Positions 4,421 to 46,403 of a stretch of 64,000 bases of DNA are shown here, one piece after another. The position numbers were made by a program, and so were the translations under genes. How positions within the stretch are numbered: position 1 is the stretch's first letter; each line of letters opens with the position of its first letter. Under the pieces are notes generated by a model. The model searched no databases. It was not told where the DNA came from and was given only the letters and a program-made list of their open reading frames with translations. Location: contig NZ_JACHMO010000001.1 of the NCBI RefSeq assembly GCF_014205015.1, forward strand, positions 8,370,001-8,434,000, written 5' to 3'. The DNA is from Saccharothrix ecbatanensis. Lineage in GTDB: Bacteria; Actinomycetota; Actinomycetes; Mycobacteriales; Pseudonocardiaceae.

Positions 4421-5182
4421 TCAGCCGCTCGAGAGGAACCCCCGGACGAGGTCGGCGAACTGGTCGGGGGCGTCGTGGTGCACGACATGGCCAGTGGGCA
4501 ACTCGGCCAAGCGCGCACAGCCTGCGCGGCGGGCGATCATCTGCTGGGCGTGCCCGGCGGACAGTTCGTCGCTGCGGGCCCCGCGGACCAGCAGGGTCGG
4601 GCAGGCCACCGCCGCCCAGTCATCCCAGTGGTCGCCATTGAGCGCTTTCTGGGACCGCACGGTGTGGTCGATGTCGAAGGAGAACCCCCAGCCGTCGCGC
4701 CGGCGGCGGAACGAGCCCGCCAGGTATGGGGCGGCCGGACCGGTGGCCGCCGCCAGGGCCTCGCGCGTGGGGGCGCGGCGTGGCAGCCGCAGGGTGAACC
4801 CCCAGTCACAGTCCACCACCGCGCCGATGTCCTCGACGATCAAGGCCGTGACCTGGCCGGGATGCCGGGCGGCGTACTGGTAGGCGTTGACCCCGCCCAG
4901 CGAATGGCCCAGCACCGCCGCCGGGCCAACGCCCACATGGCGATGGAACGCCGCGACATCGGCGACATAGCCGTCGCGCCCGTAAGCCGGGGCGCGGTCG
5001 GACTCACCATGCCCACGCTGGTCCAACGCGAGCACCCGCCACCGCGGGCCCAACGCCTCGGCCAGCGGCGCGAACACGGACGCCTCGTTGTAATGCCCAT
5101 GCAAGGCCAACAGTGGAGCGCCCCGCCCTCCGTAGTCCAGAAACGACAACCGCCGCCCTTCGGCTGTGAAGAATCCACGCAC
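4421..5182 (-). CDS. Alpha/beta-hydrolase fold protein
   Basis: This alpha/beta hydrolase (about 253 aa from the GTG at 5182) shows the oxyanion segment LALHGHYNEASVF, then LDQRGHGESDRAP, the nucleophile elbow GHSLGG, and a C-terminal catalytic His in LPTGHVVHHDAPDQF. An Asp in LLVRGARSDEL probably completes the triad. The substrate is unknown. I chose GTG 5182 because AGGG lies at a suitable distance. An ATG at 5212 or a start further upstream is possible, but the extra residues look like non-coding repeat-region translation. It converges on glgC. A long repeat array lies upstream. Confidence 0.82.
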   Translation of the reverse strand: MRGFFTAEGRRLSFLDYGGRGAPLLALHGHYNEASVFAPLAEALGPRWRVLALDQRGHGESDRAPAYGRDGYVADVAAFHRHVGVGPAAVLGHSLGGVNAYQYAARHPGQVTALIVEDIGAVVDCDWGFTLRLPRRAPTREALAAATGPAAPYLAGSFRRRRDGWGFSFDIDHTVRSQKALNGDHWDDWAAVACPTLLVRGARSDELSAGHAQQMIARRAGCARLAELPTGHVVHHDAPDQFADLVRGFLSSG

Positions 5183-5404
5183 GACCCGCACCCTAAAACA
5201 CCACACCGACATCCCAGTCCGCACGCCAGTCCGCACGCTGCCCATGCCAACATCAACCCGCATAACGCGCCTGAGGCCTCGCCCGTTGAGTTGTCCACAA
5301 CCAGCTGGGTCATCCACAACCGAGCTCTGATCGCGCGCAATCGCCGGCCACAGCCGGCAAGATCAAAGCAGGGGTCCCCTTGGCGCGAGGACCCCTGCGA
5401 AGCT

Positions 5405-5508
5405 GTTGCCGGGTTGCCGGGTTGCCGGGTTGCCGGGTTGCCGGGTTGCCGGGTTGCCGGGTTGCCGGGTTGCCGGGTTGCCGGGTTGGCCGGTTGTCGG
5501 GTCGCCGA
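5405..5508. repeat. 8-bp tandem repeat array (GTTGCCGG, 10 perfect copies)
   Basis: Ten exact head-to-tail copies of GTTGCCGG occupy 5405-5484, followed by about three degenerate copies. An 8-bp unit cannot keep a reading frame in single steps, so this is almost certainly non-coding. It sits in the 435-bp gap (5183-5617) between two leftward genes, upstream of the hydrolase. Such arrays usually expand and contract by slippage; an effect on hydrolase expression is possible but unproven. Confidence 0.95.
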
Positions 5509-5606
5509 GCCGTCCACGTCGAGCGCGTCAGAACCCGTGTCCGGGTCCGGGCGTGTCGACCGACCACTACGGCCAAACCAGACCGGTCACGCCGGCAGGC
5601 GAGCCC

Positions 5607-5628
5607 TCAGCCGACCTTCAGCCGACCT
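5607..5628. repeat. 11-bp duplication containing the methyltransferase stop codon
   Basis: TCAGCCGACCT occurs twice in direct succession (5607-5617, 5618-5628). Read on the minus strand, the second copy contains the last two codons and TGA of the O-methyltransferase, and the first copy repeats them after the stop. Confidence 0.85.
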
Positions 5629-6244
5629 TCGCCGCCACGAGCAGGCCGTCGCCCAAAGGCAGGATCACGGGCACCAGCCGGTCGTCGTCCCGCACCGCCC
5701 GCGCCACCTCCCGCATCGCCACCGTGTCCGGATCCCGGTGCGCCGGATCGACCACCCGCCCGTGCCACAGCACGTTGTCGAACGCGAGCACCCCACCCGG
5801 ACGCAGCAGCCGCACGCCCTCCTCCAGGTACCTCGGGTACTCGGACTTGGCCGCGTCCACGAACACCAGGTCGTACGCGCCGTCGGTCAACCGGGGCAGC
5901 ACCTCCAGCGCCCGGCCCATGATCAGACGGGTGCGGGACACCGCGATCCCCGCCTCCGCGAACGCCAGCCGCGCCGCCCGCTGGTGCTCCGGCTCCACGT
6001 CGATCGACGTCAGCACCCCGGCCGCCGGCATGCCGCTGAGCAGGTACAACGCGCCGACCCCGGCACCGGTGCCGATCTCGACCACGGCCTTGGCCTGCAA
6101 CGCCGCGGCGAGGAACCGCAACGCCGCCCCGCCGCCGGACCCGATCGGCACGCACCCCAACTCGACGCCACGAGCCCTGGCGGCCGTGACCACGGCGTCC
6201 TCGGGCAGGTAGCGCTCCACGTACTCGCGCGTCGGCGCATCCAC
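5618..6244 (-). CDS. O-methyltransferase, caffeoyl-CoA OMT-like
   Basis: A 208-aa SAM-dependent class I methyltransferase equivalent to mycobacterial Rv1220c, which also neighbours sigE. Motif I is VVEIGTGAGVGALYLLSG. The acidic ribose-binding strand is SIDVEPEHQRAA, and the metal-binding region has FVDAAKSEYPRYLE and LAFDNVLWHGRVVDP. These fit the cation-dependent catechol/caffeoyl-CoA group. Substrate unknown. The GTG at 6244 has TAGCCT (complement of 6252-6257) exactly 7 nt before it, suggesting a leaderless message. It is divergent from sigE across a 218-bp gap. Confidence 0.9.
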   Translation of the reverse strand: MDAPTREYVERYLPEDAVVTAARARGVELGCVPIGSGGGAALRFLAAALQAKAVVEIGTGAGVGALYLLSGMPAAGVLTSIDVEPEHQRAARLAFAEAGIAVSRTRLIMGRALEVLPRLTDGAYDLVFVDAAKSEYPRYLEEGVRLLRPGGVLAFDNVLWHGRVVDPAHRDPDTVAMREVARAVRDDDRLVPVILPLGDGLLVAAKVG

Positions 6245-6462
6245 AGCACGAAGGCTAACGCCGCCGGCGGCAATTCGGGTGAATCTTGCGGCCGATCGGG
6301 ATTCTCAGGCTGCTCTCAGCCGACTCTCACGATGGTTATAAGAGGACCCGTCAGGCTGGGCACATCGCAAGACCAGCAGGACCAACGGGGAACACGCCGG
6401 CCCGGCCGCGCGTTGAACCGTGCAGCAGGGCAGCCAGCCCAGTGGAGGTGCTTAACCGCCCG

Positions 6463-7038
6463 ATGCCAAAGCAGCCGACCGCCGCACTGACCGCGCCCAT
6501 CGACGACGTGGAGTGGATCCCGCCCTCGTGGGACGAAGTGGTGCGCGAACACGCAGACCGGGTGTACCGGCTGGCCTACCGCCTCACCGGCAACCAGCAC
6601 GACGCCGAAGACCTCACCCAGGAGACGTTCATCCGGGTGTTCCGCTCTCTCGCGTCGTACAAGCCCGGCACGTTCGAGGGCTGGCTGCACCGCATCACCA
6701 CGAACCTCTTCCTCGACATGGCCCGCCGCCGCTCCCGCGTGCGCATGGAGGCCCTGCCGGACGAGACCGACCGCATCCCGGGCGACGACCCGACCCCGGA
6801 GGAGATCTACGCCGACACGCACCTCGACCCGGAACTGCAGGCCGCGCTCGACGAGCTGCCGCCCGAGTTCCGCGCCGCCGTGGTGCTGTGTGACGTGGAA
6901 GGTCTCTCCTATGAGGAGATCGGCGCCACTCTCGGCGTCAAACTCGGTACCGTGAGGAGCAGGATCCACCGGGGCCGCCAGGCCCTGCGGGTCGCACTCG
7001 AACGCCGTCGGGGTCTCGTCCAGGAGGACTCTGCATGA
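6463..7038 (+). CDS. sigE: ECF RNA polymerase sigma factor SigE
   Basis: A 191-aa group 4 sigma factor. Region 2 includes [20 protein letters not shown] and [14 protein letters not shown]. Region 4 includes [20 protein letters not shown] and [19 protein letters not shown]. The sequence is close to mycobacterial SigE, which drives the envelope and heat/oxidative stress response. ATG 6463 was chosen because residues match the family from here. GTG 6448, or a longer N-terminus, cannot be excluded; SigE start sites are variable in relatives. The stop overlaps the anti-sigma gene by 4 bp (ATGA), so the two are translationally coupled. Confidence 0.95.
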
Positions 7039-7643
7039 CCGACCTGCGAGGTTGGCAACTGCCCGAGCAGCACCTGCTGCCCGACGCGGTCGTCGCCTTC
7101 GTCGACGGCGAGCTGTCCGCCTCGGCGCACTCCAGGGCGTCCGCGCACTTGGCGCGCTGCCCGTTCTGCGCCGCCGAGGCGTACTCCCAGCAGCAGGCCC
7201 GTTCCGCGGTGCGCGCCGCCGACGCGCCGTGCGCCCCCGCCGGGCTCCTGGCCAGGCTGGGCGCGATCCCGCAGGAAGTGGAGCTGCCCAGCGCGCCGGA
7301 CGGCCTCGCGGTCACGGAGGACGGCCAGCTCGTCACCGTGCAGCGGCCCGACCGGGTCGCGTTCGGCGGCGGTCCCGTGTTGGGCCAGAGCCGCCCTTTC
7401 GGGACAGGCGGCGCAAGCCGCTTCGGAGGTAGGCGGGCCCGCCACGGTGCGGGTGTCGTCGTCTCCGGCCTCATGCTCGGCGCCCTCGTGCTCGTCGCAC
7501 CCGGCAGCGAGGACACCTCGCCGCCGCCCGCTCAGGGCAACACCCCGGAGCCCACGCCGGCCGTCGCGCCGTCGCTGGCGGGCACCAGCCACCAGCAGAT
7601 GGGCGTGCTGCGCCCCGTGGTGGACCCCGGCCTCGGCCGCTGA
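7035..7643 (+). CDS. rseA: Anti-sigma-E factor with zinc ZAS domain
   Basis: This 202-aa protein has an N-terminal zinc anti-sigma domain with the HX3CX2C signature (His38, Cys42, Cys45, in [11 protein letters not shown]). A hydrophobic segment around residues 137-157 ([20 protein letters not shown]) suggests it may be membrane-anchored, unlike the soluble mycobacterial RseA. The Pro/Thr-rich tail would then be external. It should bind SigE and release it on redox or envelope stress. It is coupled to sigE by a 4-bp overlap and followed by tandem repeats, then htrA. Confidence 0.9.
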
Positions 7644-7787
7644 CCCCCAGCAGCCTGACCGAGCAGGCTGACCCCAGCAGGCCCACGCGAGCAGGCTGAC
7701 CCTGAGCAGGTTGACCCCAGCCGGCCCGCCCCAGCAGGTTGACCCCAGCCGGCCCGCCCCAGCAGGTTGACCCCAGCCGGCCCGCCC
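7639..7787. repeat. Tandem repeats between rseA and htrA (28-bp unit)
   Basis: From 7711 to 7787 there are 2.75 perfect copies of a 28-bp unit containing TTGACCCCAGCCGGCCCGCC followed by CCAGCAGG. Upstream, from the rseA stop codon on, degenerate GCTGACC...CAGCAGG units continue the pattern. No open frame of interest lies in the 7644-7902 gap. The array separates the sigE-rseA pair from htrA. Confidence 0.9.
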
Positions 7788-7902
7788 GAACCTGCCACCC
7801 ACCCGAGCCGAACCGGCCGATGAGGCCCACTGACGGCAACTTCACCGGTAACCGGGCACGATTGACCCCGGACGACCATGGTGTGACGACGTGCGGGGAG
7901 CG

Positions 7903-9429
7903 ATGAGCGAGCCAGAGCAGGGCAACGGGATCCCCCGGTCGGGCATTGACGACGGGGCGAACCGCAGGCTCGCACCCCGCCCGCTCAACCGCCCGCCGGT
8001 CGACTCCGGCCAGGCGGCCGTGTTCGGCAGGCCGCAGGGCGTTCCGGGCGCGTTCTCCGCCGACCGGCCGAGCCTCAACGGCAACGGCGCCGTCCAGTTC
8101 GCGCCACCGCCGCCGGAAGCGCTGTCCACGGCGTTCGGCCGGCCCCAAGGCGACCCGGACACCCGCTTGCAGCGCCCGCCCGTCGACCTGAACGGCGAGC
8201 CCGAGGTCGAGCCCGTCTTCTGGGAGGGCAAGCCGGCGGGTGACGCCTGGCGCGACCCGGCCGCGTCGGCCGTCATCGGCCCGCCCGCGGTCACCGAGCA
8301 GCCCGACACCGAGACCAAGCCCGAGTCGCCGGCCGGTCCGCAGCTCAGCATCCCCGAACTCCTGTTCGGTCGACGCGTGAAGCCGATGGCCCTGGTCCTG
8401 CTGATGGTGGCCGCACTCCTGATCGGCACGGGCGGCGGTGTGGTCGGGTGGCTGCTCGGCCGCGTCGGCAACCCGCTCACCGACGGCGGCGTCACGCTCG
8501 CCGAGGTCAAGCCCGGCAAGGAACGCCCGGTCGGCTCGGTCGCCGACATCGCCCAACGCGTCACGCCCAGCGTCGTGTCGATCGAGTTCAAGGGCGCCAA
8601 CGTGGCCGGCGTCGGCTCCGGCGTGGTGATCGACGGCGAAGGCTACGTGCTGACCAACGACCACGTGGTCGCACCGGCCGTGCAGGACACGTCCGCGAAG
8701 CTGACCGTCGTCTTCACGGACGGCAAGAGGGCCGTGGCGCAGGTCGTCGGCCGCGACTCCAAGACCGACCTCGCGGTGATCAAGGTCGAGGTGGACAACC
8801 CGACCGTGCTCCAGTTCGGCGACTCGGACGCGTTGGCCGTCGGCGACACCGTGCTGGCCATCGGCTCGCCGCTGTCCCTGTCGAACACCGTGACGGAGGG
8901 CATCGTCAGCGCCCTGCACCGCCCTGTGACGGCGGCCGGTGACAACGGCGGCCCGCAGATCACCTACGACGCGATCCAGACCGACGCGGCCATCAACCCC
9001 GGCAACTCGGGCGGCGCGCTGGTCGACTCGTCCGGCGCGCTGGTGGGCATCAACTCGTCGATCCGGACCGAGACCGGCGGCTCGGTCGGCCTCGGCTTCG
9101 CCATCTCCGGCAACTACGCGCGCAAGGTGTCGCAGGCCCTCATCCGCGACGGCGAGGTCAAGCACGCCGACATGAACATCAACGTGCGGTCGGCGTCGGC
9201 GGAGACGGCGGAAGGCGCGCAGGTGCAGAACGTCCCCGAAGGCGGCGCCGCCGACGCGGCCGGCATCGAGGAGGGCGACGTGATCACCCGCGTCGGCGAC
9301 CGGATGGTGCGCAACGCCGCGGAGTTGACCGTCGCGGTAAGGAACCATGAAATCGGCGAGACGGTGCCGGTCGTGCTGGCCAGGCAGGGCCGAGAGCTGA
9401 CCGTGCAGGTCACACTGCGGTCCGACTGA
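7903..9429 (+). CDS. htrA: Membrane-anchored HtrA/DegP-type serine protease
   Basis: A 508-aa envelope protease. The cytoplasmic N-terminus (about 155 residues) is Pro/Arg-rich. A single membrane helix follows (PMALVLLMVAALLIGTGGG). Then comes a trypsin-like domain with catalytic His254 (TNDHVV), Asp289 (TDLAVIKV) and Ser369 (NPGNSGGAL), and a C-terminal PDZ domain (about 410-505) with EGGAADAAGIEEGD. It matches Rv1223, next to sigE/rseA in mycobacteria, and is thought to act in envelope protein quality control. ATG 7903 has GGGGAG just upstream. Confidence 0.95.
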   Translation: MSEPEQGNGIPRSGIDDGANRRLAPRPLNRPPVDSGQAAVFGRPQGVPGAFSADRPSLNGNGAVQFAPPPPEALSTAFGRPQGDPDTRLQRPPVDLNGEPEVEPVFWEGKPAGDAWRDPAASAVIGPPAVTEQPDTETKPESPAGPQLSIPELLFGRRVKPMALVLLMVAALLIGTGGGVVGWLLGRVGNPLTDGGVTLAEVKPGKERPVGSVADIAQRVTPSVVSIEFKGANVAGVGSGVVIDGEGYVLTNDHVVAPAVQDTSAKLTVVFTDGKRAVAQVVGRDSKTDLAVIKVEVDNPTVLQFGDSDALAVGDTVLAIGSPLSLSNTVTEGIVSALHRPVTAAGDNGGPQITYDAIQTDAAINPGNSGGALVDSSGALVGINSSIRTETGGSVGLGFAISGNYARKVSQALIRDGEVKHADMNINVRSASAETAEGAQVQNVPEGGAADAAGIEEGDVITRVGDRMVRNAAELTVAVRNHEIGETVPVVLARQGRELTVQVTLRSD

Positions 9430-15697: not shown

Positions 15698-16615
15698 TCA
15701 GGTTAGTCCGCTGACCGGTCCACCGCTGCGTTCCACAGTGGACGAGGGCGCCGGGGACGAGGGGTGGAGGGCGCGGGCGATGGCCTCGCACCTCACCGCC
15801 GAGTCGGCCGAACCCACGTCCAGGCCCCACAGCCAGTTGTCGACCGCGCGGTAGAACGTCCAGTCGCGGGCGCGGGCGACGTCCAGCCCGGCGATGTCGC
15901 ACAGCGCGGCGAACCGGTCGCGCAGGCCGCGTTCGCCGTCCATCTCGCCGAACCTGTTCCACAGCAACGGGATCACGCCGAACTCGGGGTCGCCGGCGAG
16001 TGGTTTCGGGTCGATCATCACCCACGGCTCGCGGTCGCCGCGCAGCACGTTCTCGTAGTGCAGGTCCTCGTTGACGAGCGTGTTCCCGGCCGATTCGGCG
16101 AGCGAACGGCCCAGCTCCTGGGCCAGGTGAACGAACGCGTCCGGCACCGGTCCGCCCAGCGCGGCGTTCTCCTCGGCCAGGTCGTCCGGGATGTGCCGGC
16201 GGAACTCCGCGCCGGCCGGGACGCTCAGCCGGCGGAGCAGTCCGCCGGTGACGGCCAAGGCCTCCTCGATCGGCGCGTGGTTCAGCGTGTGGGTGTGGTC
16301 GAGGCGTTCGAGGAGGAGCGCGCCGTGCTCGTCGTCGTGGTCCAGCAGTTCCACCACACCCCGGCCGCGCCACTTCTCCAGTGCCAGCGGTTCCTGGCGG
16401 GTCTCGGTGTCGAGCCAGGTGAGCTTGAGGACGGCCGGGTGCCCGTCGGCGCGGCGGACCGGGAGGACGACGGCGACGTGGCCGTTGAGCAGGGGGCCGT
16501 CGGGGGTGAGGGCCCAGTGGGCGCAGAACTTCGTGGCCAGGGCGGGCAGCCTCGCGCGCCACGCCGGCGCGCCCTCGCCGAGGGTGAGCGCGAAGTCTTC
16601 GGGGACGGTGATCAC
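15698..16615 (-). CDS. Aminoglycoside/hydroxyurea phosphotransferase-like kinase (APH_6_hur)
   Basis: A 305-aa protein resembling streptomycin 6-kinases. Key parts are WALTPDGPLLNGHVAVVLPV, the nucleotide-lysine region PAVLKLTW, the catalytic loop NEDLHYENVL (Asp as base) and the metal-binding MIDPKPLAGDPEFGVIPLLW. Such kinases phosphorylate streptomycin or hydroxyurea, but many chromosomal members have no known substrate. The GTG at 16615 overlaps the upstream gene's TGA (GTGA), so the two are translationally coupled. Resistance function is not established. Confidence 0.88.
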   Translation of the reverse strand: MITVPEDFALTLGEGAPAWRARLPALATKFCAHWALTPDGPLLNGHVAVVLPVRRADGHPAVLKLTWLDTETRQEPLALEKWRGRGVVELLDHDDEHGALLLERLDHTHTLNHAPIEEALAVTGGLLRRLSVPAGAEFRRHIPDDLAEENAALGGPVPDAFVHLAQELGRSLAESAGNTLVNEDLHYENVLRGDREPWVMIDPKPLAGDPEFGVIPLLWNRFGEMDGERGLRDRFAALCDIAGLDVARARDWTFYRAVDNWLWGLDVGSADSAVRCEAIARALHPSSPAPSSTVERSGGPVSGLT

Positions 16616-16947
16616 GCGAACTCCAAGCGGTAGACCGATTCCCACTCCGGCCGGGTGTTGAGCCGTGCGGCCTTGAGCGCTTTGGCGGTGTCGTCGTCAG
16701 GTTCGGCCAGGTGGGCGGTCGCCGGGGCGTCCACCAGGTGCGAGTGCGTGGTGGGGGAGCGGACGGTCACCGTGCAGGCGACGCCGTCCGCCAGCCCCGG
16801 GACCACTTGTTCCGTGCCGCCGACCGCCACCAGCACCGCGCCGTCGCGCCAGAGGGCCCACACAAGCCTCGGCTCGTGGCCGGACGGCTCGACCCAGATC
16901 GCGGCGGCTTTGCGCAGCGCGTTGTCCAGCACCTGCTCGATCTCCAC
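16612..16947 (-). CDS. Hypothetical protein, 111 aa
   Basis: A small acidic protein without signal peptide or membrane segment (start GTG 16947). It opens with a helix (VLDNALRKAAAIWV) followed by short beta strands (PRLVWALWRDGAVLVAVGG; ACTVTVRSP) and a charged C-terminus ending in RPEWESVYRLEFA. The family is not recognised. It is coupled to the downstream kinase gene by a 4-bp overlap and divergent from the CitE-like gene. Codon use matches the neighbours, so it is probably a real gene. Confidence 0.75.
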   Translation of the reverse strand: MEIEQVLDNALRKAAAIWVEPSGHEPRLVWALWRDGAVLVAVGGTEQVVPGLADGVACTVTVRSPTTHSHLVDAPATAHLAEPDDDTAKALKAARLNTRPEWESVYRLEFA

Positions 16948-17061
16948 CGGTTCAGCCTGCCACGGGCCTGTGAATCGGGACTCACGAAATAGCGGGCGGA
17001 ACGTGTGCGTGCCACCCTTCGCACAACAGGAGTTACCGGCCGGTACGAGGAGGTACCCACA

Positions 17062-18021
17062 GTGGTCGACCAGCAGCGTCCCCGTCGCTCGTGTCTGGCC
17101 GTGCCCGGCTCGAGCCAGAAGATGATCGACAAGGCTCGCACGCTGCCCGCGGACCAGGTGTTCCTCGACCTGGAGGACGCGTGCGCGCCGCTGGCCAAGC
17201 CGGACGCGCGCAAGACCATCGTGGCGTCGTTGAACGAGGGCGGCTGGGGCTCGCGCGCCAGGGTGGTCCGGGTCAACGACTGGACCACCGAGTGGACGTA
17301 CCGCGACGTCACCGAGGTGGTGGAGGGCGCGGGGGCGAACCTGGACTGCGTCATGCTGCCCAAGGTGCAGACCGCGGAGCAGGTGCACGCGCTGGACCTG
17401 CTGCTGACGCAGATCGAGAAGACCATGGGGTACGAGGTCGGCCGGATCGGCATCGAGGCGCAGATCGAGAACGCCCTCGGTCTGATCAACGTCAACGCGA
17501 TCGCGGTCGCCTCGCCGCGGGTCGAGACGATCATCTTCGGGCCGGCCGACTTCATGGCGTCGATCAACATGAAGTCGCTGGTCGTGGGCGAGCAGCCACC
17601 GGGCTACGACGTGGGCGACGCGTACCACTACATCCTGATGCAGATCCTGATGGCGGCCCGTGCGCACGACAAGCTGGCGATCGACGGGCCGTACTTGCAG
17701 ATCCGCGACGTGGACGGGTTCAAGCGGGTGGCCGGCCGGTCGGCGGCTTTGGGCTTCGACGGCAAGTGGGTGCTGCACCCCGGTCAGATCGATGCGGCGA
17801 ACGAGGTGTTCAGCCCGAAGCAGGAGGACTACGACCACGCCGAGAACATCCTCGACGCGTACGACTACTTCACGTCCGAGGCGGGCGGCAAGCGCGGCGC
17901 CGTGATGCTCGGCGACGAGATGATCGACGAGGCGTCCCGGAAGATGGCCCTGGTCATCTCGTCCAAGGGACGTGCCGCCGGCATGACCCGCACGAACGTG
18001 TGGTCGCCGCCGGAGGAGTGA
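17062..18021 (+). CDS. CitE-like / malyl-CoA lyase family protein (HpcH/HpaI fold)
   Basis: A 319-aa TIM-barrel lyase. Hallmarks are SCLAVPGSSQKMIDKA (CoA region), VFLDLEDACAP (metal-binding acidic residues), MLPKVQTAEQV, IGIEAQIENALGLIN and FGPADFMASI, with KWVLHPGQIDAANEVFSP near the end. Length and pattern resemble actinobacterial malyl/methylmalyl-CoA lyase-like proteins found in ethylmalonyl-CoA clusters. A citramalyl-CoA lyase role is an alternative. GTG 17062 has an AGGAGG 8 nt upstream. Functional partners (acyl-CoA dehydrogenase at 20559, MaoC at 34548) lie elsewhere in the window. Confidence 0.9.
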   Translation: MVDQQRPRRSCLAVPGSSQKMIDKARTLPADQVFLDLEDACAPLAKPDARKTIVASLNEGGWGSRARVVRVNDWTTEWTYRDVTEVVEGAGANLDCVMLPKVQTAEQVHALDLLLTQIEKTMGYEVGRIGIEAQIENALGLINVNAIAVASPRVETIIFGPADFMASINMKSLVVGEQPPGYDVGDAYHYILMQILMAARAHDKLAIDGPYLQIRDVDGFKRVAGRSAALGFDGKWVLHPGQIDAANEVFSPKQEDYDHAENILDAYDYFTSEAGGKRGAVMLGDEMIDEASRKMALVISSKGRAAGMTRTNVWSPPEE

Positions 18022-18064: not shown

Positions 18065-19147
18065 GTGACCGACAGGGAGCTGAAGTCCATCGAGATCGAG
18101 GGCTACGCCTCGATCCGGTCGGCAACGGTGTCCCTCGGCCGGCTCAACGTGCTGGTCGGCGCGAACGGCGCGGGCAAGAGCAACTTCGTGCGTGTGTTCG
18201 AGTTGCTGGGCAGGCTGGTCGAGTCGGATCTCGGCTTCTTCGTCGGCCTGAACGGCGGCGCGTCCGCGCTGCTCAACTCGACTGCCACTCGGCTTCGGCT
18301 GGCGCTGACCGGCTCGATAGAGCAGTACGAAGCAGTGCTCGTGTCAGCCAGCGACGACGAATTCATCTTCGCCCACGAATCCGTTGGCTGGGCGGTGCCG
18401 GTCGAGGTCGGCCGGGGGAACCGGGAGACGCGTCTCCACGAGACCGCCGAGACGGGGGTCAACCAGGCAGCCTCGGGAATGATCGACTTCCTGCGCGGCT
18501 GCCGCGTCTACCACTTCCACGACACGAGCCGGAACGCCCCGGTCAAGCAACTGGTGCCGACGGCCGACAACCTGTCGTTGCGCAACGACGCGGGCAACCT
18601 CGCGGCGGTCCTTCTGGCGCTGATCGAAAGTGGGGACAGCGCCGACCAGGCGGCGTACCGGCGGATCGTCGGCGTGATCCGCCAGGTCGCGCCGTTCTTC
18701 CGGGACTTCGTGCTGAGCGCGGAGAAGAGCGACAGCGTTCGCCTGCGGTGGCGGCAGGCCGACTCGGATGCCGTGTTCTCCGCCAACCAGATGTCCGACG
18801 GCACCTTGCGGTTCGTCTGCCTGGCGACCCTCCTGCTCCACCCGAGGCTCCCGTCGCTGGTCGTGCTGGACGAACCCGAACTCGGGTTGCACCCGTACGC
18901 CGTCGTCCAGTTGGCAGGGCTCCTGCGGCAGGCGTCGGTGCGCAGCCAGGTGCTTATCGCGACCCAGTCCGTCACGCTGATGAACCAGTTCGAGATCGAC
19001 GACCTCATCGTGGTCGAGCGGGTCGACGGCGCCTCCGAGTTCATCCGACCGGATCGCGAACGGCTGGGCGAGTGGTTGAACGAGTACTCGCTGGGCGAGT
19101 TGTGGGAGAAGAACCTGATCGGGGGCAGGCCGGGCGGTAGCACGTGA
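18065..19147 (+). CDS. AAA/ABC-type ATPase (AAA_21), defence-associated type
   Basis: A 360-aa stand-alone ABC-like ATPase of the RecF/OLD type. Walker A is GANGAGKS (residues 32-39), in the usual context IEGYASIRSATVSLGRLNVL. A signature-like FSANQMSDGTLRFVCLATLL precedes Walker B SLVVLDEPELGLHP, and the sensor strand is QVLIATQSVTLMNQF. It overlaps the DUF4276 gene by 4 bp. Pairing of such an ATPase with a TOPRIM-like partner recalls phage-defence systems of the OLD/Gabija/PARIS kind, though none of those is a direct match. The ATPase is intact but its partner is frameshifted. Confidence 0.88.
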   Translation: MTDRELKSIEIEGYASIRSATVSLGRLNVLVGANGAGKSNFVRVFELLGRLVESDLGFFVGLNGGASALLNSTATRLRLALTGSIEQYEAVLVSASDDEFIFAHESVGWAVPVEVGRGNRETRLHETAETGVNQAASGMIDFLRGCRVYHFHDTSRNAPVKQLVPTADNLSLRNDAGNLAAVLLALIESGDSADQAAYRRIVGVIRQVAPFFRDFVLSAEKSDSVRLRWRQADSDAVFSANQMSDGTLRFVCLATLLLHPRLPSLVVLDEPELGLHPYAVVQLAGLLRQASVRSQVLIATQSVTLMNQFEIDDLIVVERVDGASEFIRPDRERLGEWLNEYSLGELWEKNLIGGRPGGST

Positions 19148-19805
19148 CGGGCGCTTTCCGGCGGCTGCACGTCCTGGTCGAAGGACAGACCGAGGAAGTA
19201 GTGGTCAACACGGTGATCGGCCCGCACCTGCGGTCGTTCGGATGGCACACCACGTACTCCCTGGTGAAGACCAAGCGGCCCGCGTCGGGGCCCTCCCACA
19301 AGGGCGGCATCACCAGTTGGAGGCAGGTCCAGACCGACATCCGGCTGCTGCTCGGCGACTCCAGCCTCGAAGTGCTGACCACGATGTTCGACTACTACGC
19401 GTTTCCGGTCGAGAGCCCGGCATGGCCGATCGGCCGTCAGGCGACGTCTACCAGCGGGTTGAGCACGTCGAACGGGCGCTCGCCGCGGCGTTCGGGGATC
19501 GTCGGCTTCGTCCGAACCTGGTTCTCCACGAGCTGGAGGCGTGGGTTTTCGCCGCTGCCGACGAACTCGGAGTCCTGCTCGGGGACGAACTGGCTGCGCT
19601 GCTGCGGCGCGACGTACTGACCGCAGGCGGTCCGGAAATGGTCGACGACCGACCCGAGACCGCGCCGTCGAAGCGTCTGCTCGCGTACTGCCCGACCTAC
19701 CTCAAGACGTCTGACGGACCCCTCGCCATCGCAGAGCTCGGGATCGGGAAGTTGCGCGCGCAGTGCCCGCACCTCGACGCGTGGCTGCGGACGCTGGCGG
19801 AGTGA
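19144..19805 (+). pseudogene. DUF4276 family protein, frameshifted
   Basis: The N-terminal part (frame from GTG 19144) reads HVLVEGQTEEVVVNTVIGP, the acidic TOPRIM-like start of DUF4276, and continues to LTTMFDYYAFPVESP. The family then needs a P-G-M...RV..LE.AL stretch followed by an HE(L/F)EA motif. These occur in the -1 frame as GMADRPSGDVYQRVEHVERA and LVLHELEAWVFAAADELGVL, up to TGA 19805. The switch maps to the CCC run at 19416-19418; one extra C would restore a full gene of about 220 codons. It is either an inactivating 1-bp deletion, an assembly error or, less likely, programmed frameshifting. It is the partner of the upstream ATPase. Confidence 0.85.
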
Positions 19806-19900
19806 CTTCGTGTGCCGGTGAGGTCACGGGTGGTGGCCTCACCGGTGAGCATGCACACAAGTCCTGGTCGGGATTGGCGATCAAGGGGTGGGTCCTGTGC

Positions 19901-20074
19901 ATGGTGTTCGCCGTGTCCAGACATCGAACCCCCCGCCGCCGACTGTTCCAGCGTCGGCGTGACGACCTGCTGGAGCGCAGCTTCCGGTCCTGCCCGGCCT
20001 GCTCCACGGAAGTCCACGTGTTCGCCGACCTCTGCCGGCACTGCGGCGGCACGCTGGAGTTGCGCGCCTCCTGA
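19901..20074 (+). CDS. Small zinc-ribbon protein
   Basis: A 57-aa peptide from ATG 19901 with a basic N-terminal half (SRHRTPRRRLFQRRRDDLLE) and two CXXC knuckles (CPAC and CRHC, spaced 14 residues) that should bind one zinc ion. The start is uncertain because no clear ribosome-binding site is present. Related zinc-ribbon domains are common in small actinobacterial proteins of unknown function. It follows the DUF4276 pseudogene by 95 bp. Confidence 0.6.
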   Translation: MVFAVSRHRTPRRRLFQRRRDDLLERSFRSCPACSTEVHVFADLCRHCGGTLELRAS

Positions 20075-20558: not shown

Positions 20559-21755
20559 ATGGCGCGCCTGGCCCGGACCGCAGGACTGACCGACATCCAG
20601 GAGGAGATCCTGTCGACGGTCCGCACCTTCGTGGACAAGGAGATCATCCCGCACGCCCAGGCGCTGGAACACGGTGACACCTACCCGACCGACATCGTCG
20701 AGGGCATGAAGGAGATGGGCCTGTTCGGGCTCACCATCCCCGAGGAGTTCGGCGGGCTCGGCGAGTCCCTGCTCACCTACGCCCTGGTCGTCGAGCAGAT
20801 CGCACGCGGCTGGATGTCGGTGTCCGGTGTGATCAACACCCACTTCATCGTGGCGCACATGCTCAAGCAGCACGGCACGCCAGAGCAGCAGCAGAAGTAC
20901 CTGCCGCGGATGGCGACCGGCGAGGTGCGCGGCTCGTTCTCCATGTCCGAGCCCGAGTTGGGCTCCGACGTGGCCGCGATCCGGACGCGTGCGACCCGTG
21001 ACGGCGACGACTTCGTCATCAACGGCCAGAAGATGTGGCTCACCAACGGCGGCACGTCCAACCTCACCGCCGTCCTGGTGAAGACCGACGAAGGCGCGGA
21101 GAAGGCGCACCAGAACCTGACCACGTTCCTGGTGGAGAAGCCCGAGGGCTACGGCGAGGTCCTGCCCGGTCTCACCATCCCCGGCAAGCTCGACAAGATG
21201 GGCTACAAGGGCGTCGACACCACCGAGATGGTGTTCGACGGCTTCAAGATCCCCGCCGAGCAGGTGCTGGGCGGCACGACCGGGCGCGGGTTCCGGCACA
21301 TGATGGACGGCGTCGAGGTCGGCCGGGTGAACGTGGCGGCACGGGCGTGCGGCATCGCGTTGCGGGCGTTCGAGTTGGCCATCGAGTACGCCCAGCAGCG
21401 CAAGACGTTCGGCAAGCCGATCGTCGAGCACCAGGCCATCGCGTTCAAGCTGGCCGAGATGGCGACCAAGGTCGAGGCCGCGCACCTGATGATGGTCAAC
21501 GCGGCCCGGCTGAAGGACTCCGGCGCGCGCAACGACGTCGAGGCGGGCATGGCGAAGCTCATCGCGTCCGAGTACTGCGCCGAGGTGACGCAGGAGGCGT
21601 TCCGCATCCACGGCGGCTACGGGTACTCCAAGGAGTACGAGATCGAGCGCCTGATGCGCGAGGCCCCGTTCCTGCTCATCGGCGAGGGCACCAGCGAGAT
21701 CCAGAAGACCATCATCAGCCGGGGCCTCCTGCGCGACTACCAGTCCCGCGGCTGA
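20559..21755 (+). CDS. Acyl-CoA dehydrogenase
   Basis: A 398-aa FAD enzyme with the complete acyl-CoA dehydrogenase pattern: GLFGLTIPEEFGGLG, SFSMSEPELGSDVAAIRTRA (FAD/substrate), NGQKMWLTNGG, CGIALRAFELAIEYAQQRKT, HGGYGYSKEYEIERLMREAP and the catalytic-base loop LIGEGTSEIQK. GAAGGGA precedes the ATG. The segment GWMSVSGVINTHFIVAHML resembles enzymes acting on methyl-branched or dicarboxylic acyl-CoAs, such as the methylsuccinyl-CoA type, but the substrate cannot be fixed from sequence. It stands alone, followed at once by a hairpin terminator. Confidence 0.93.
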   Translation: MARLARTAGLTDIQEEILSTVRTFVDKEIIPHAQALEHGDTYPTDIVEGMKEMGLFGLTIPEEFGGLGESLLTYALVVEQIARGWMSVSGVINTHFIVAHMLKQHGTPEQQQKYLPRMATGEVRGSFSMSEPELGSDVAAIRTRATRDGDDFVINGQKMWLTNGGTSNLTAVLVKTDEGAEKAHQNLTTFLVEKPEGYGEVLPGLTIPGKLDKMGYKGVDTTEMVFDGFKIPAEQVLGGTTGRGFRHMMDGVEVGRVNVAARACGIALRAFELAIEYAQQRKTFGKPIVEHQAIAFKLAEMATKVEAAHLMMVNAARLKDSGARNDVEAGMAKLIASEYCAEVTQEAFRIHGGYGYSKEYEIERLMREAPFLLIGEGTSEIQKTIISRGLLRDYQSRG

Positions 21756-36235: not shown

Positions 36236-36655
36236 TCAGCTCCGGGGTAGTTGATCCCACGCCTTGAGGGTGTCGTGGAGCATCTCGACCAGTGGAAGTG
36301 TGGCCAAGATCGCAGCGTCGGCCCAGCAGGCATCCGATGCGTCGTCCCCCGCTCGGAGCACGCCGGATCGCACCTGGCAGGCGTAGTCGTGGATCTCGTA
36401 CCGGCCCCGTGGCGCCGGACGGGTGACGGTGCCGATCAGCGCCCCCACTGTCACGGAGAGTCCGGTTTCCTCCAGGAGTTCCCGCACAATTGCGGTCTCG
36501 TCGGACTCGCCGTGCTCGACTCGGCCACCTGGCAAGGACCACAGTCCCTCACCTGGGGGATTGCCGCGACGCACGAGCAGCAGTCGCCCGTTCGAGTCAT
36601 GCGCGATGCCCCCGACGCAGCGGATCGCGGGCTCCCGTTCGGCCGTCACGATCAC
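36236..36655 (-). CDS. NUDIX hydrolase
   Basis: A 139-aa pyrophosphohydrolase with a complete Nudix box GGRVEHGESDETAIVRELLE followed by ETGL (GX5EX7REUXEEXGU). A strand-rich N-terminus (IRCVGGIAHDSNGRLLLVRR) precedes it. It probably cleaves nucleoside diphosphate derivatives in the cytoplasm; substrate unknown. Start GTG 36655. It converges on the second DUF2332 gene. Confidence 0.92.
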   Translation of the reverse strand: MIVTAEREPAIRCVGGIAHDSNGRLLLVRRGNPPGEGLWSLPGGRVEHGESDETAIVRELLEETGLSVTVGALIGTVTRPAPRGRYEIHDYACQVRSGVLRAGDDASDACWADAAILATLPLVEMLHDTLKAWDQLPRS

Positions 36656-36699
36656 GAAGCGTAGTCACACCGGGTTGGCGGTGCAGCACGCTGACCCAA

Positions 36700-36772
36700 G
36701 TGCGGTACAAATCTCCCGACGTGTCGCGGAGTGCGGTACAACGGTTTTCACTGGCGCCAAACGGGTGCGGTA
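36700..36772. promoter_or_regulatory. Three GTGCGGTA direct repeats upstream of a small membrane gene
   Basis: GTGCGGTA occurs at 36700-36707, 36731-36738 and 36765-36772; the first two extend to AGTGCGGTACAA. Spacings of 31 and 34 bp are about three helical turns, so a regulator could bind all sites on one DNA face. They precede the 36793 and 36990 genes. The binding protein is unknown. Confidence 0.5.
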
Positions 36773-36792
36773 GCGAACGGGAGTTGATCACC

Positions 36793-36951
36793 GTGAATCT
36801 GAAGAAGATTCTCACTTTCGCCGGGGTCGGCTTGGTCCTGTTCTTCCTCATCGCGGAACCTGAGCAAGCGGCCGGACTGGTGCACAACATCCTCGACACC
36901 CTCCGGACGGCTGCTGAGGCGCTCATCACCTTCGTGAAACAATTGTTCTGA
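36793..36951 (+). CDS. 52-aa small membrane protein
   Basis: GTG 36793 with GGGAG 9 nt upstream begins a 52-codon frame: a membrane helix (KILTFAGVGLVLFFLIAEPE) followed by an amphipathic helix (LVHNILDTLRTAAEALITFV). Small single-helix proteins of this design are common beside actinobacterial membrane proteins. It is probably co-transcribed with the PH-domain gene 38 bp downstream. Function unknown. Confidence 0.75.
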   Translation: MNLKKILTFAGVGLVLFFLIAEPEQAAGLVHNILDTLRTAAEALITFVKQLF

Positions 36952-36989
36952 GTCGCCCGACTCCTCCCCCACGGCGAGAGGTCGCAGGC

Positions 36990-37550
36990 ATGTTCGCACC
37001 ACGTGACCCCGACGAGTACCTGCTCCCCACGGAGCGTCGGGTCATCCGGGTACGCAGGCACTGGAGCAGTCTGCTCTGGGATCTCCTCGAAGCAGGCGCT
37101 CTGCTGGCCGGCGCGATGATGATCTCGTACCTGCTGCCGGACAACGCGGGGATCATCCAGAACATCCTCTGGTACGCCTCGCTGTTCGTGCTGCTCAGGC
37201 TGGCCTACTTCGTCATGGAGTGGTGGGTGGAGCGGATCGTCGTCACCGACAAGAGGTTCATGATCTCCTCCGGGGTGTTCGAGACCAAGGTCGCGATGAT
37301 GCCGATCAGCAAGGTCACCGACCTGACCTACGAGCGCTCGGTGCTCGGGCGCATGTTCGGCTTCGGCACCCTGGTCGTCGAGTCGGCCGGTCAGATCCAG
37401 GCGTTGAACCGGATCGAGTACCTGCCGAACCCCGAGGAGGTCTACGACGCCATCTCGGAGTTGACCTTCGGTGACAAGAAGGCCCAGGCGGAGCGGTTCT
37501 CGATGATCAAGGCGCAGCGGGCGGCCCGCGGCAAGAAGATGGTGCCGTAG
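36990..37550 (+). CDS. Bacterial PH-domain (bPH2) membrane protein
   Basis: A 186-aa protein. Two adjacent membrane helices (LLEAGALLAGAMMISYLLPD; IIQNILWYASLFVLLRLAYF) are followed by a bPH2 domain with WVERIVVTDKRFMISSGVFE, KVAMMPISKVTDLTYERSVL and GFGTLVVESAGQIQALNRIE. The tail is basic. The YdbS/YdbT-like group is membrane-associated with unknown roles. GAGAGG precedes the ATG. Confidence 0.9.
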   Translation: MFAPRDPDEYLLPTERRVIRVRRHWSSLLWDLLEAGALLAGAMMISYLLPDNAGIIQNILWYASLFVLLRLAYFVMEWWVERIVVTDKRFMISSGVFETKVAMMPISKVTDLTYERSVLGRMFGFGTLVVESAGQIQALNRIEYLPNPEEVYDAISELTFGDKKAQAERFSMIKAQRAARGKKMVP

Positions 37551-45332: not shown

Positions 45333-45338
45333 TAGGCT
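45333..45338 (+). promoter_or_regulatory. TAGGCT -10 element of the MiaE-like gene
   Basis: TAGGCT ends 7 nt before ATG 45346 without an intervening ribosome-binding site: a leaderless promoter. Confidence 0.5.
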
Positions 45339-45345
45339 CGTGGGC

Positions 45346-46044
45346 ATGAGCGACCCAGGAGTGGATCGAGCGGCGGCTCAGGCGGTTGCGGTGGGTGGGG
45401 AAGGCCCGTTGGCCGAGGGCATCGTGGACCTGCTGGGCGCGCTCGCGTACGGCGAGCTGTCGGCGTTCGACCGGATGGCCGAGGACGCCCGCAGTGCTCC
45501 CACGCTGGCCGGACGGGCCGCGTTGGCGCAGATGGCCGCGGCCGAGATCGGGCACTACGCGCTGCTGGAGCGGTACCTGGGCGACCGCGGCCACTCGATC
45601 GAGGAGGCCATGCGGCCGTTCGCCGTCGGGTTCGACGCGTTCCACGCTTCCACCGCGCCGCGGTCGTGGTCGGAATCGCTGGTCAAGGCGTACGTCGGGG
45701 ACGCGCTGGCGGCGGACTTCTACCGCGAGGTCGCCGAGTGGCTGGACGAGCCGACCAAGGAGCTGGTGCTCGCGGTGCTGGCCGACACGGGGCACTCCGC
45801 GTTCGCCGAGCGCGAAGTCCGGGCCGCCTGCGCCGCCGATCCGACGTTGCGCGACCGGCTCACGTTGTGGGGTCGCCGGCTGCTCGGCGAGGCGTTGACG
45901 CAGGCCCAGTACGTGGTCGCGGAACGGGACGGGCTGGCCGAGCTGATCGTGCGCGGCTCGGGCGACCTGGCGGGCATCGCGGCGCTGTTCCGCCGGCTGC
46001 AACAGAGCCACACGAGGCGCATGACGGTGCTCGGGCTCGGCTAG
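45346..46044 (+). CDS. Ferritin-like diiron protein, MiaE-like (Rv3210c type)
   Basis: A 232-aa four-helix ferritin-fold protein. Likely diiron ligands lie in [37 protein letters not shown] and [19 protein letters not shown], fitting the MiaE_2-type tRNA-hydroxylase-like family. The actual substrate in actinobacteria is unknown. It is divergent from the helicase, as in mycobacteria, and followed by DUF3107. Confidence 0.88.
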
Positions 46045-46085
46045 GGTTGGGTTTCGAAAGCATTCAACGCCGCACGGAGGTCAGC

Positions 46086-46316
46086 GTGGAGGTCAGGGTC
46101 GGGATCGCGGACAGCCCGCGGGAGCTCGTGGTGTCCAGCGGGCTCACCCCCGAAGAGGTCGAGTCGCAGGTCGCGGACGCGCTGAAGGCGGGCACGGGGC
46201 AGCTCGTGCTGGTCGACCAGAAGGGCGCCCGCTACGTGGTGCCCGCGGCGCGCATCGCGTACGTGGAGATCGGTCCGAGCGACGCCCGTCGGGTCGGTTT
46301 CGTCTCCGGCGACTGA
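46086..46316 (+). CDS. DUF3107 family protein
   Basis: A 76-aa protein equivalent to mycobacterial TB9.4 (Rv3208A): VEVRVGIADSPRELVVSSGL, EEVESQVADALKAGTGQLVL and AARIAYVEIGPSDARRVGFV. It is small and strand-helix-strand in character, with no known function. GGAGG precedes GTG 46086. Followed by a strong bidirectional terminator. Confidence 0.93.
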   Translation: MEVRVGIADSPRELVVSSGLTPEEVESQVADALKAGTGQLVLVDQKGARYVVPAARIAYVEIGPSDARRVGFVSGD

Positions 46317-46356
46317 GCGTCCGAGCGGCCGGGCGAGCGCGGCTCTCCGGAACACG

Positions 46357-46386
46357 GGAAGGGGCACCCGATCGGGTGCCCCTTCC
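46357..46386. terminator. Near-continuous 30-bp palindromic terminator
   Basis: The 30 bp from 46357 to 46386 are one perfect inverted repeat (GGAAGGGGCACCCGA and its complement), folding into a very stable hairpin with a minimal loop. It serves the rightward DUF3107 gene and the leftward DUF4873 gene. Confidence 0.9.
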
Positions 46387-46403
46387 GCATTTCTCGCCCT
46401 TGG

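Follow-up and report, generated by a model that had tools for sequence, protein, structure and literature searches.

The locus

How does an apparently defensive gene pair come to be broken in one gene and intact in the other, and what does the break say about the way the pair works? The question is raised by an ATPase gene and a DUF4276 gene at positions 18065 to 19805 of a 64,000-nucleotide stretch of the chromosome of the soil bacterium Saccharothrix ecbatanensis (the window; positions 8,370,001 to 8,434,000 of NZ_JACHMO010000001.1, a single contig of 9,689,237 bases). The pair belongs to a known candidate family, HEC-01 (Hma-embedded candidate 01, PADLOC), and here its effector gene has recently been broken. 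As gene decay the frameshift is unremarkable; the interest lies in the pattern around it, a swappable block in the ATPase and a tendency to lose the nuclease first in an uncharacterized candidate defense pair. Both patterns are new: single-gene lesions that fall mostly in DUF4276, and a hypervariable ATPase cassette that is exchanged between relatives. We consider it highly probable that the locus represents an HEC-01-type anti-phage candidate at a long-occupied site between CitE and dehydrogenase genes, with a lesion in DUF4276, an exchangeable ATPase cassette, and a putative mechanism of ATPase sensor and TOPRIM effector.

Family identity

The first gene (18065..19147, plus strand, GTG start) is an intact open reading frame (ORF) for an OLD/SMC-type ABC ATPase of 360 amino acids, and it overlaps by 4 bp the DUF4276 ORF directly downstream, which begins with GTG at 19144 and, being frameshifted, yields no whole protein. 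This coupling was described correctly in the original prediction, as was the defense-type layout of an ATPase followed by a TOPRIM-like partner. The further statement that the pair matches no known family does not hold. HEC-01A (PDLC04175) matches residues 1 to 356 of the ATPase (1.4e-130), and HEC-01B (PDLC04188) matches both pieces of DUF4276 (3e-25 and 6.6e-38), for which the PADLOC matches are HEC-01B models only. Intact relatives behave likewise (2.2e-132 for the ATPase, 2.5e-70 for the DUF4276 protein P0016). By sequence, the pair is thus a member of the PADLOC candidate system HEC-01. In Pfam the ATPase matches AAA_21 (1.2e-29), and DUF4276 matches PF14103 with a sub-threshold hit to OLD-like_TOPRIM (0.19) and none to DUF4435. 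Sequence searches of solved structures returned weak matches of the ATPase to an OLD-family protein and two transporter ATPases, and for DUF4276 nothing up to an E of 1; Foldseek on the DUF4276 model returned nothing at E below 0.001. In the literature searched, no paper naming DUF4276 was found, HEC-01 was merely listed in the context of defense, and neither a description of its mechanism nor a report of anti-phage activity was found.

The closest named proteins come from Saccharothrix and Actinosynnema, and the ATPase-DUF4276 family is spread over several phyla. Twelve plasmid records match at 29 to 40% identity, and in all three of the plasmid loci opened the pair sits amid SNF2 or DEAD-box helicase, methyltransferase, or Mrr genes. 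These operons (L141, L142, and L143) are from Aeromonas and Ideonella. A Rhodothermales contig (L073) carries two tandem ATPase-DUF4276 pairs, at 4841-6681 and 7264-9104.

A private frameshift in DUF4276

PF14103 matches the DUF4276 gene in two pieces, both above the curated cut-off: profile positions 1-69 at 19177-19407 (8.2e-10) and 69-191 (of 192) at 19437-19796 (8.5e-25), the second in the -1 frame relative to the first. As now encoded, the gene (19144..19620, plus strand, GTG start) specifies 158 amino acids that are native to approximately residue 91 and then out of frame up to the stop at 19618-19620. The detached C-terminal part (19417..19805, plus strand, -1 frame; PF14103, 1.4e-25) corresponds to residues 92-220 of P0016, an uninterrupted protein of 220 amino acids that is 97.8% and 97.7% identical to the two window pieces; because both resemble one unbroken protein so closely, the two frames belong to one gene, beyond chance. 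The break lies in the interval 19408..19437 (plus strand), defined by the gap between the two PF14103 pieces and by alignments to relatives. It had been placed at a CCC run at 19416-19418, with resumption in the -1 frame; the interval and the frame stand, but the exact base is not fixed, as the alignments put the one-base difference variously within a few bases of that run.

An uninterrupted DUF4276 copy therefore exists in a very close relative. The gene for P0016 and that for P0124, an ATPase relative, are probably neighbors, as the longest contig for each is 115,251 bases. Four genus relatives (G005, G020, G021, and G024) also have DUF4276 in one frame, while G002 has a frameshift of its own about 20 nucleotides beyond that of the window. 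The window's frameshift was found in no other genome examined; where relatives are broken, they are broken at other positions. Counterparts of the DUF4276 invariants E130, E132, S176, and K177 lie in the detached C-terminal part, and the frameshift is likely a private loss-of-function lesion that removes probable catalytic residues. With its DUF4276 effector interrupted, the system is off in this genome. The proposal that it was recently silenced while its ATPase remained intact is supported. A phase-variable hotspot was also considered, since the lesions of the window (G000) and G002 are about 20 nucleotides apart, and rejected, as other lesions are scattered along the gene.

DUF4276 tends to be lost before the ATPase

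DUF4276 (E up to 1e-5) and the ATPase (E up to 1e-25) were sought independently of each other across 390 genomes of the bacterial family, so that a skew between them should not stem from the search. DUF4276 was found in 43 genomes and the ATPase in 47 (union, 48); with one remnant detected only as DNA (G022), this gave 49 loci, each checked for open frames. Both genes are open in 27. Ten loci combine a full-length ATPase with a broken or absent DUF4276 (G000, G002, G265, G385, G841, G842, G858, G895, G947, and G1082), one has a broken ATPase with an open DUF4276 (G882), and in 11 both are damaged (G001, G007, G019, G022, G223, G365, G808, G849, G896, G900, and G922). Single-gene lesions thus fall in DUF4276 in 10 of 11 cases, against an expectation from gene length of 0.376 (p = 4.1e-4); under other classings p ranges from 0.001 to 0.01, and for small point-like lesions only, 5/6 are in DUF4276 (p = 0.03). 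Two actinobacterial loci outside the family count (L065 and L071) likewise pair a full-length ATPase with a frame-broken DUF4276. The skew is consistent with safe loss of the effector and with disfavored loss of the ATPase alone, although it does not prove that the ATPase restrains its partner.

An exchanged cassette in the ATPase

Residues 70-142 of the ATPase (18272..18490, plus strand, with approximate boundaries placed by eye) evolve apart from the rest of the protein. Compared with P0124, the window ATPase is identical at 66/69 positions over residues 1-69 and at 217/218 over residues 143-360, but at only 33/73 over residues 70-142, with 10 gap columns in addition. P0123 and P0124 are identical at all 218 positions of residues 143-360 and at 38/76 in the block. 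Backbones that are 99% identical therefore carry cassettes that are 42 to 50% identical. The same trough appears over 331 ATPase pairs, drawn from the 120 listed relatives, that share 85% identity or more outside the block: identity averages 0.36 to 0.41 at residues 101-140, compared to 0.75 to 0.95 in 20-residue bins outside it. No such trough occurs in 52 comparable DUF4276 pairs (0.78 to 0.94).

Over the sub-block 99-142, the window ATPase shares 36/44 residues with P0122 and 38/44 with P0127, and the backbones of these two are more distant from that of the window than are the backbones of P0123 and P0124. In approximately unbiased (AU) tests on 22 sequences, the block rejected the backbone clade (p-AU = 8.4e-5) and did not reject the block clade (0.129), and the backbone rejected the block clade (1.3e-3); these p values are optimistic in that the clades were chosen after the identities had been seen. 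As judged from these comparisons, residues 70-142 are a hypervariable, exchanged cassette. In the ATPase model the block comprises four strands after the first helices, plus two more helices. A variable block decoupled from its backbone is typical of recognition regions, and the cassette may serve as a recognition segment.

A long-occupied chromosomal site

The upstream flank of the pair (17005..18021, plus strand) is an ORF that we take to be a CitE/HpcH-type lyase; its stop lies 43 bp before the ATPase start, and it is matched in 25/25 Saccharothrix genomes. Downstream, an ORF at 20559..21755 (plus strand), presumably an acyl-CoA dehydrogenase, closes the same gap in 20/25 genomes. Within this gap, four genomes carry an intact pair, two a frameshifted DUF4276 (the window and G002), and four only remnants (G001, G007, G019, and G022); in the other 15 no trace of the module was found, including four (G004, G012, G014, and G018) in which the dehydrogenase was not within the 9 kb fetched. 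The gap takes different cargo, as the closest relative by flank (G008) carries a complete DndB gene there on the other strand (PF14072, 8.6e-70; L031, 951-2168, minus strand) and G003 has a GNAT acetyltransferase gene (PF13302, 5.3e-13; L045, 7503-8201, minus strand). Other genera of the family, too, have the module close to genes related to this dehydrogenase, to the zinc-ribbon protein, or to CitE, so the chromosomal site is old, or favored; the CitE-like neighbors there are often only 33 to 36% identical.

Alternative explanations of the break and of the pair

A sequencing or assembly error, in which case the strain would really carry an intact HEC-01 pair, is unlikely, and less likely than mutation. 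A one-base indel beside a short run of C in a GC-rich genome is what such an error would look like, and any loss would have to be very recent with the C-terminal part still 97.7% identical to P0016. Five residues differ from P0016, of which N168D and E219A alone depart from the majority residue among 50 relatives; these are too few to show decay or to decide between mutation and error, yet the change at residue 168, where 48/50 relatives have N, to D in the window fits relaxed constraint. Against an error also stands the rest of the window, in which DUF4276 is the sole convincing coding frameshift over 55.3 kb of blocks compared with G008 and 53.4 kb compared with G005; it shows in the comparison with G005, the module being absent from G008. 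Three other candidates were rejected for their low third-position G+C (0.51 to 0.60): 15761-16951 comprises a gene plus an upstream extension, in which this value falls from 0.93 to 0.51, and 45336-46399 and 36636-37029 are probably wrong-frame ORFs. Two breaks in the comparison with G005 are on the G005 side. Similar lesions are, moreover, common in relatives, which argues for mutation here too. They also tell against a programmed -1 frameshift that would yield a full-length protein from two frames, as the original prediction had allowed. Each frame is indeed open and conserved on its side of the junction, but P0016, the four intact genus relatives, and all 27 loci with both genes open use a single frame, breaks elsewhere fall at other codons (about 30 in G858, 74/75 in G895, 98/99 in G002, and 142/147 in G947), and no X-XXY-YYZ heptamer was seen by eye at the junction in the incoming frame. 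Programmed slippage is hardly credible and is, for practical purposes, ruled out.

The order of loss could instead mean that the pair is not defensive at all, the ATPase being a housekeeping protein and DUF4276 a dispensable one that is lost first. A full-length ATPase ORF persists in the 10 loci where DUF4276 is damaged or absent, in several genera the module has metabolic genes next to it, and none of 50,697 phage records searched matched it, all of which would suit such a role. The ATPase is not essential, however, given the 15 of 25 genus genomes in which no trace of the module was found at this site; the plasmid relatives sit in restriction-type operons; the HEC families of PADLOC are Hma-embedded candidates (PMC12111858); and the cassette varies like a recognition region. 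We regard a housekeeping role as quite improbable and retain the reading of the pair as a defense candidate with a decayed effector.

Comparison with known systems and a proposed mechanism

As in HEC-01 generally, the ATPase gene directly precedes the DUF4276 gene and both are best matched by its models, and the three plasmid relatives have helicase, methylase, or Mrr genes around them. Unlike the Hma-operon setting, the window pair stands alone by metabolic genes, with its B gene frameshifted. PARIS (AriA/AriB) likewise consists of an ABC ATPase and a TOPRIM protein encoded by two genes, and chains of its complexes turn up in structure searches with both window-pair models. The best AriA model, however, scores 1.2e-27 on the window ATPase compared to 1.4e-130 for HEC-01A, and AriB is a DUF4435 protein (PMC9122126), whereas the effector here is DUF4276; this partner family (PF14103, without DUF4435) rules out membership of PARIS. 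OLD nucleases and Gabija GajA also join an ABC ATPase to a TOPRIM nuclease, but fused in one protein. Bp OLD shares with DUF4276 a pattern of two Glu, Asp, an acidic pair, and Lys, although the DxD motif reads DxY in DUF4276. Gabija and Class 2 OLD were rejected, as the ATPase ORF ends at 360 amino acids without a TOPRIM among its Pfam matches and no UvrD-like helicase is among the next genes downstream. HEC-04/IbfA, compared by description only, belongs to the same Hma-embedded candidate set and combines ABC ATPase and TOPRIM in a single fused protein, unlike the window pair, with phage defense reported (PMC12111858). Septu PtuA and retron-linked PtuA ATPases rank near the top when Foldseek is run on the window ATPase, but the PtuA partner is presumably an HNH nuclease, going by entry titles of the retron IA complex, unlike DUF4276.

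By analogy with PARIS, a variable-sensor ATPase likely controls a TOPRIM nuclease. In PARIS, AriA sequesters its effector AriB until triggered (PMC12409363, PMC11455837). We propose that the HEC-01 ATPase would detect a signal of infection, its specificity set by the cassette, and would hold or activate the DUF4276 protein. The latter would be a two-metal nuclease of TOPRIM fold, acting either by killing or arresting the cell or by cleaving nucleic acid of the phage or the host. Loss of the effector would then be tolerated first, and loss of the ATPase alone would rarely be seen. The fuller proposal, that HEC-01 is a PARIS-like sensor-effector system whose specificity lies in a cassette exchanged as a unit and whose effector is lost first because the ATPase restrains it, is offered tentatively and falls somewhat short of probable. 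Several points weigh against it, beyond the post hoc choice of clades in the AU tests. In PARIS, loss of ariA alone was non-toxic (PMC9122126), and G882 has only its ATPase broken. The counts also depend on classing: G841, counted as lacking DUF4276, may never have had this partner; G849, counted as damaged, has a single open DUF4276 ORF that skips residues between 171 and 190, a stretch that includes the invariant S176 and K177; and the ATPase of G002, counted as intact, is without its first five codons and has a TTG start. Together, the cassette and the decay pattern suggest, in a form open to testing, which part of the pair does the sensing and which the acting.

Neighboring genes

Downstream of the ATPase the order is DUF4276, a small zinc-ribbon-like protein, a DUF4190 gene, and the dehydrogenase. 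The zinc-ribbon-like protein (19763..20074, plus strand, start uncertain) has a weak DZR match (0.001, below the cut-off) and is a conserved neighbor, found near the module in several genera. ORFs sharing its C-terminal sequence were also seen, by eye, in the gaps of several module-less Saccharothrix genomes.
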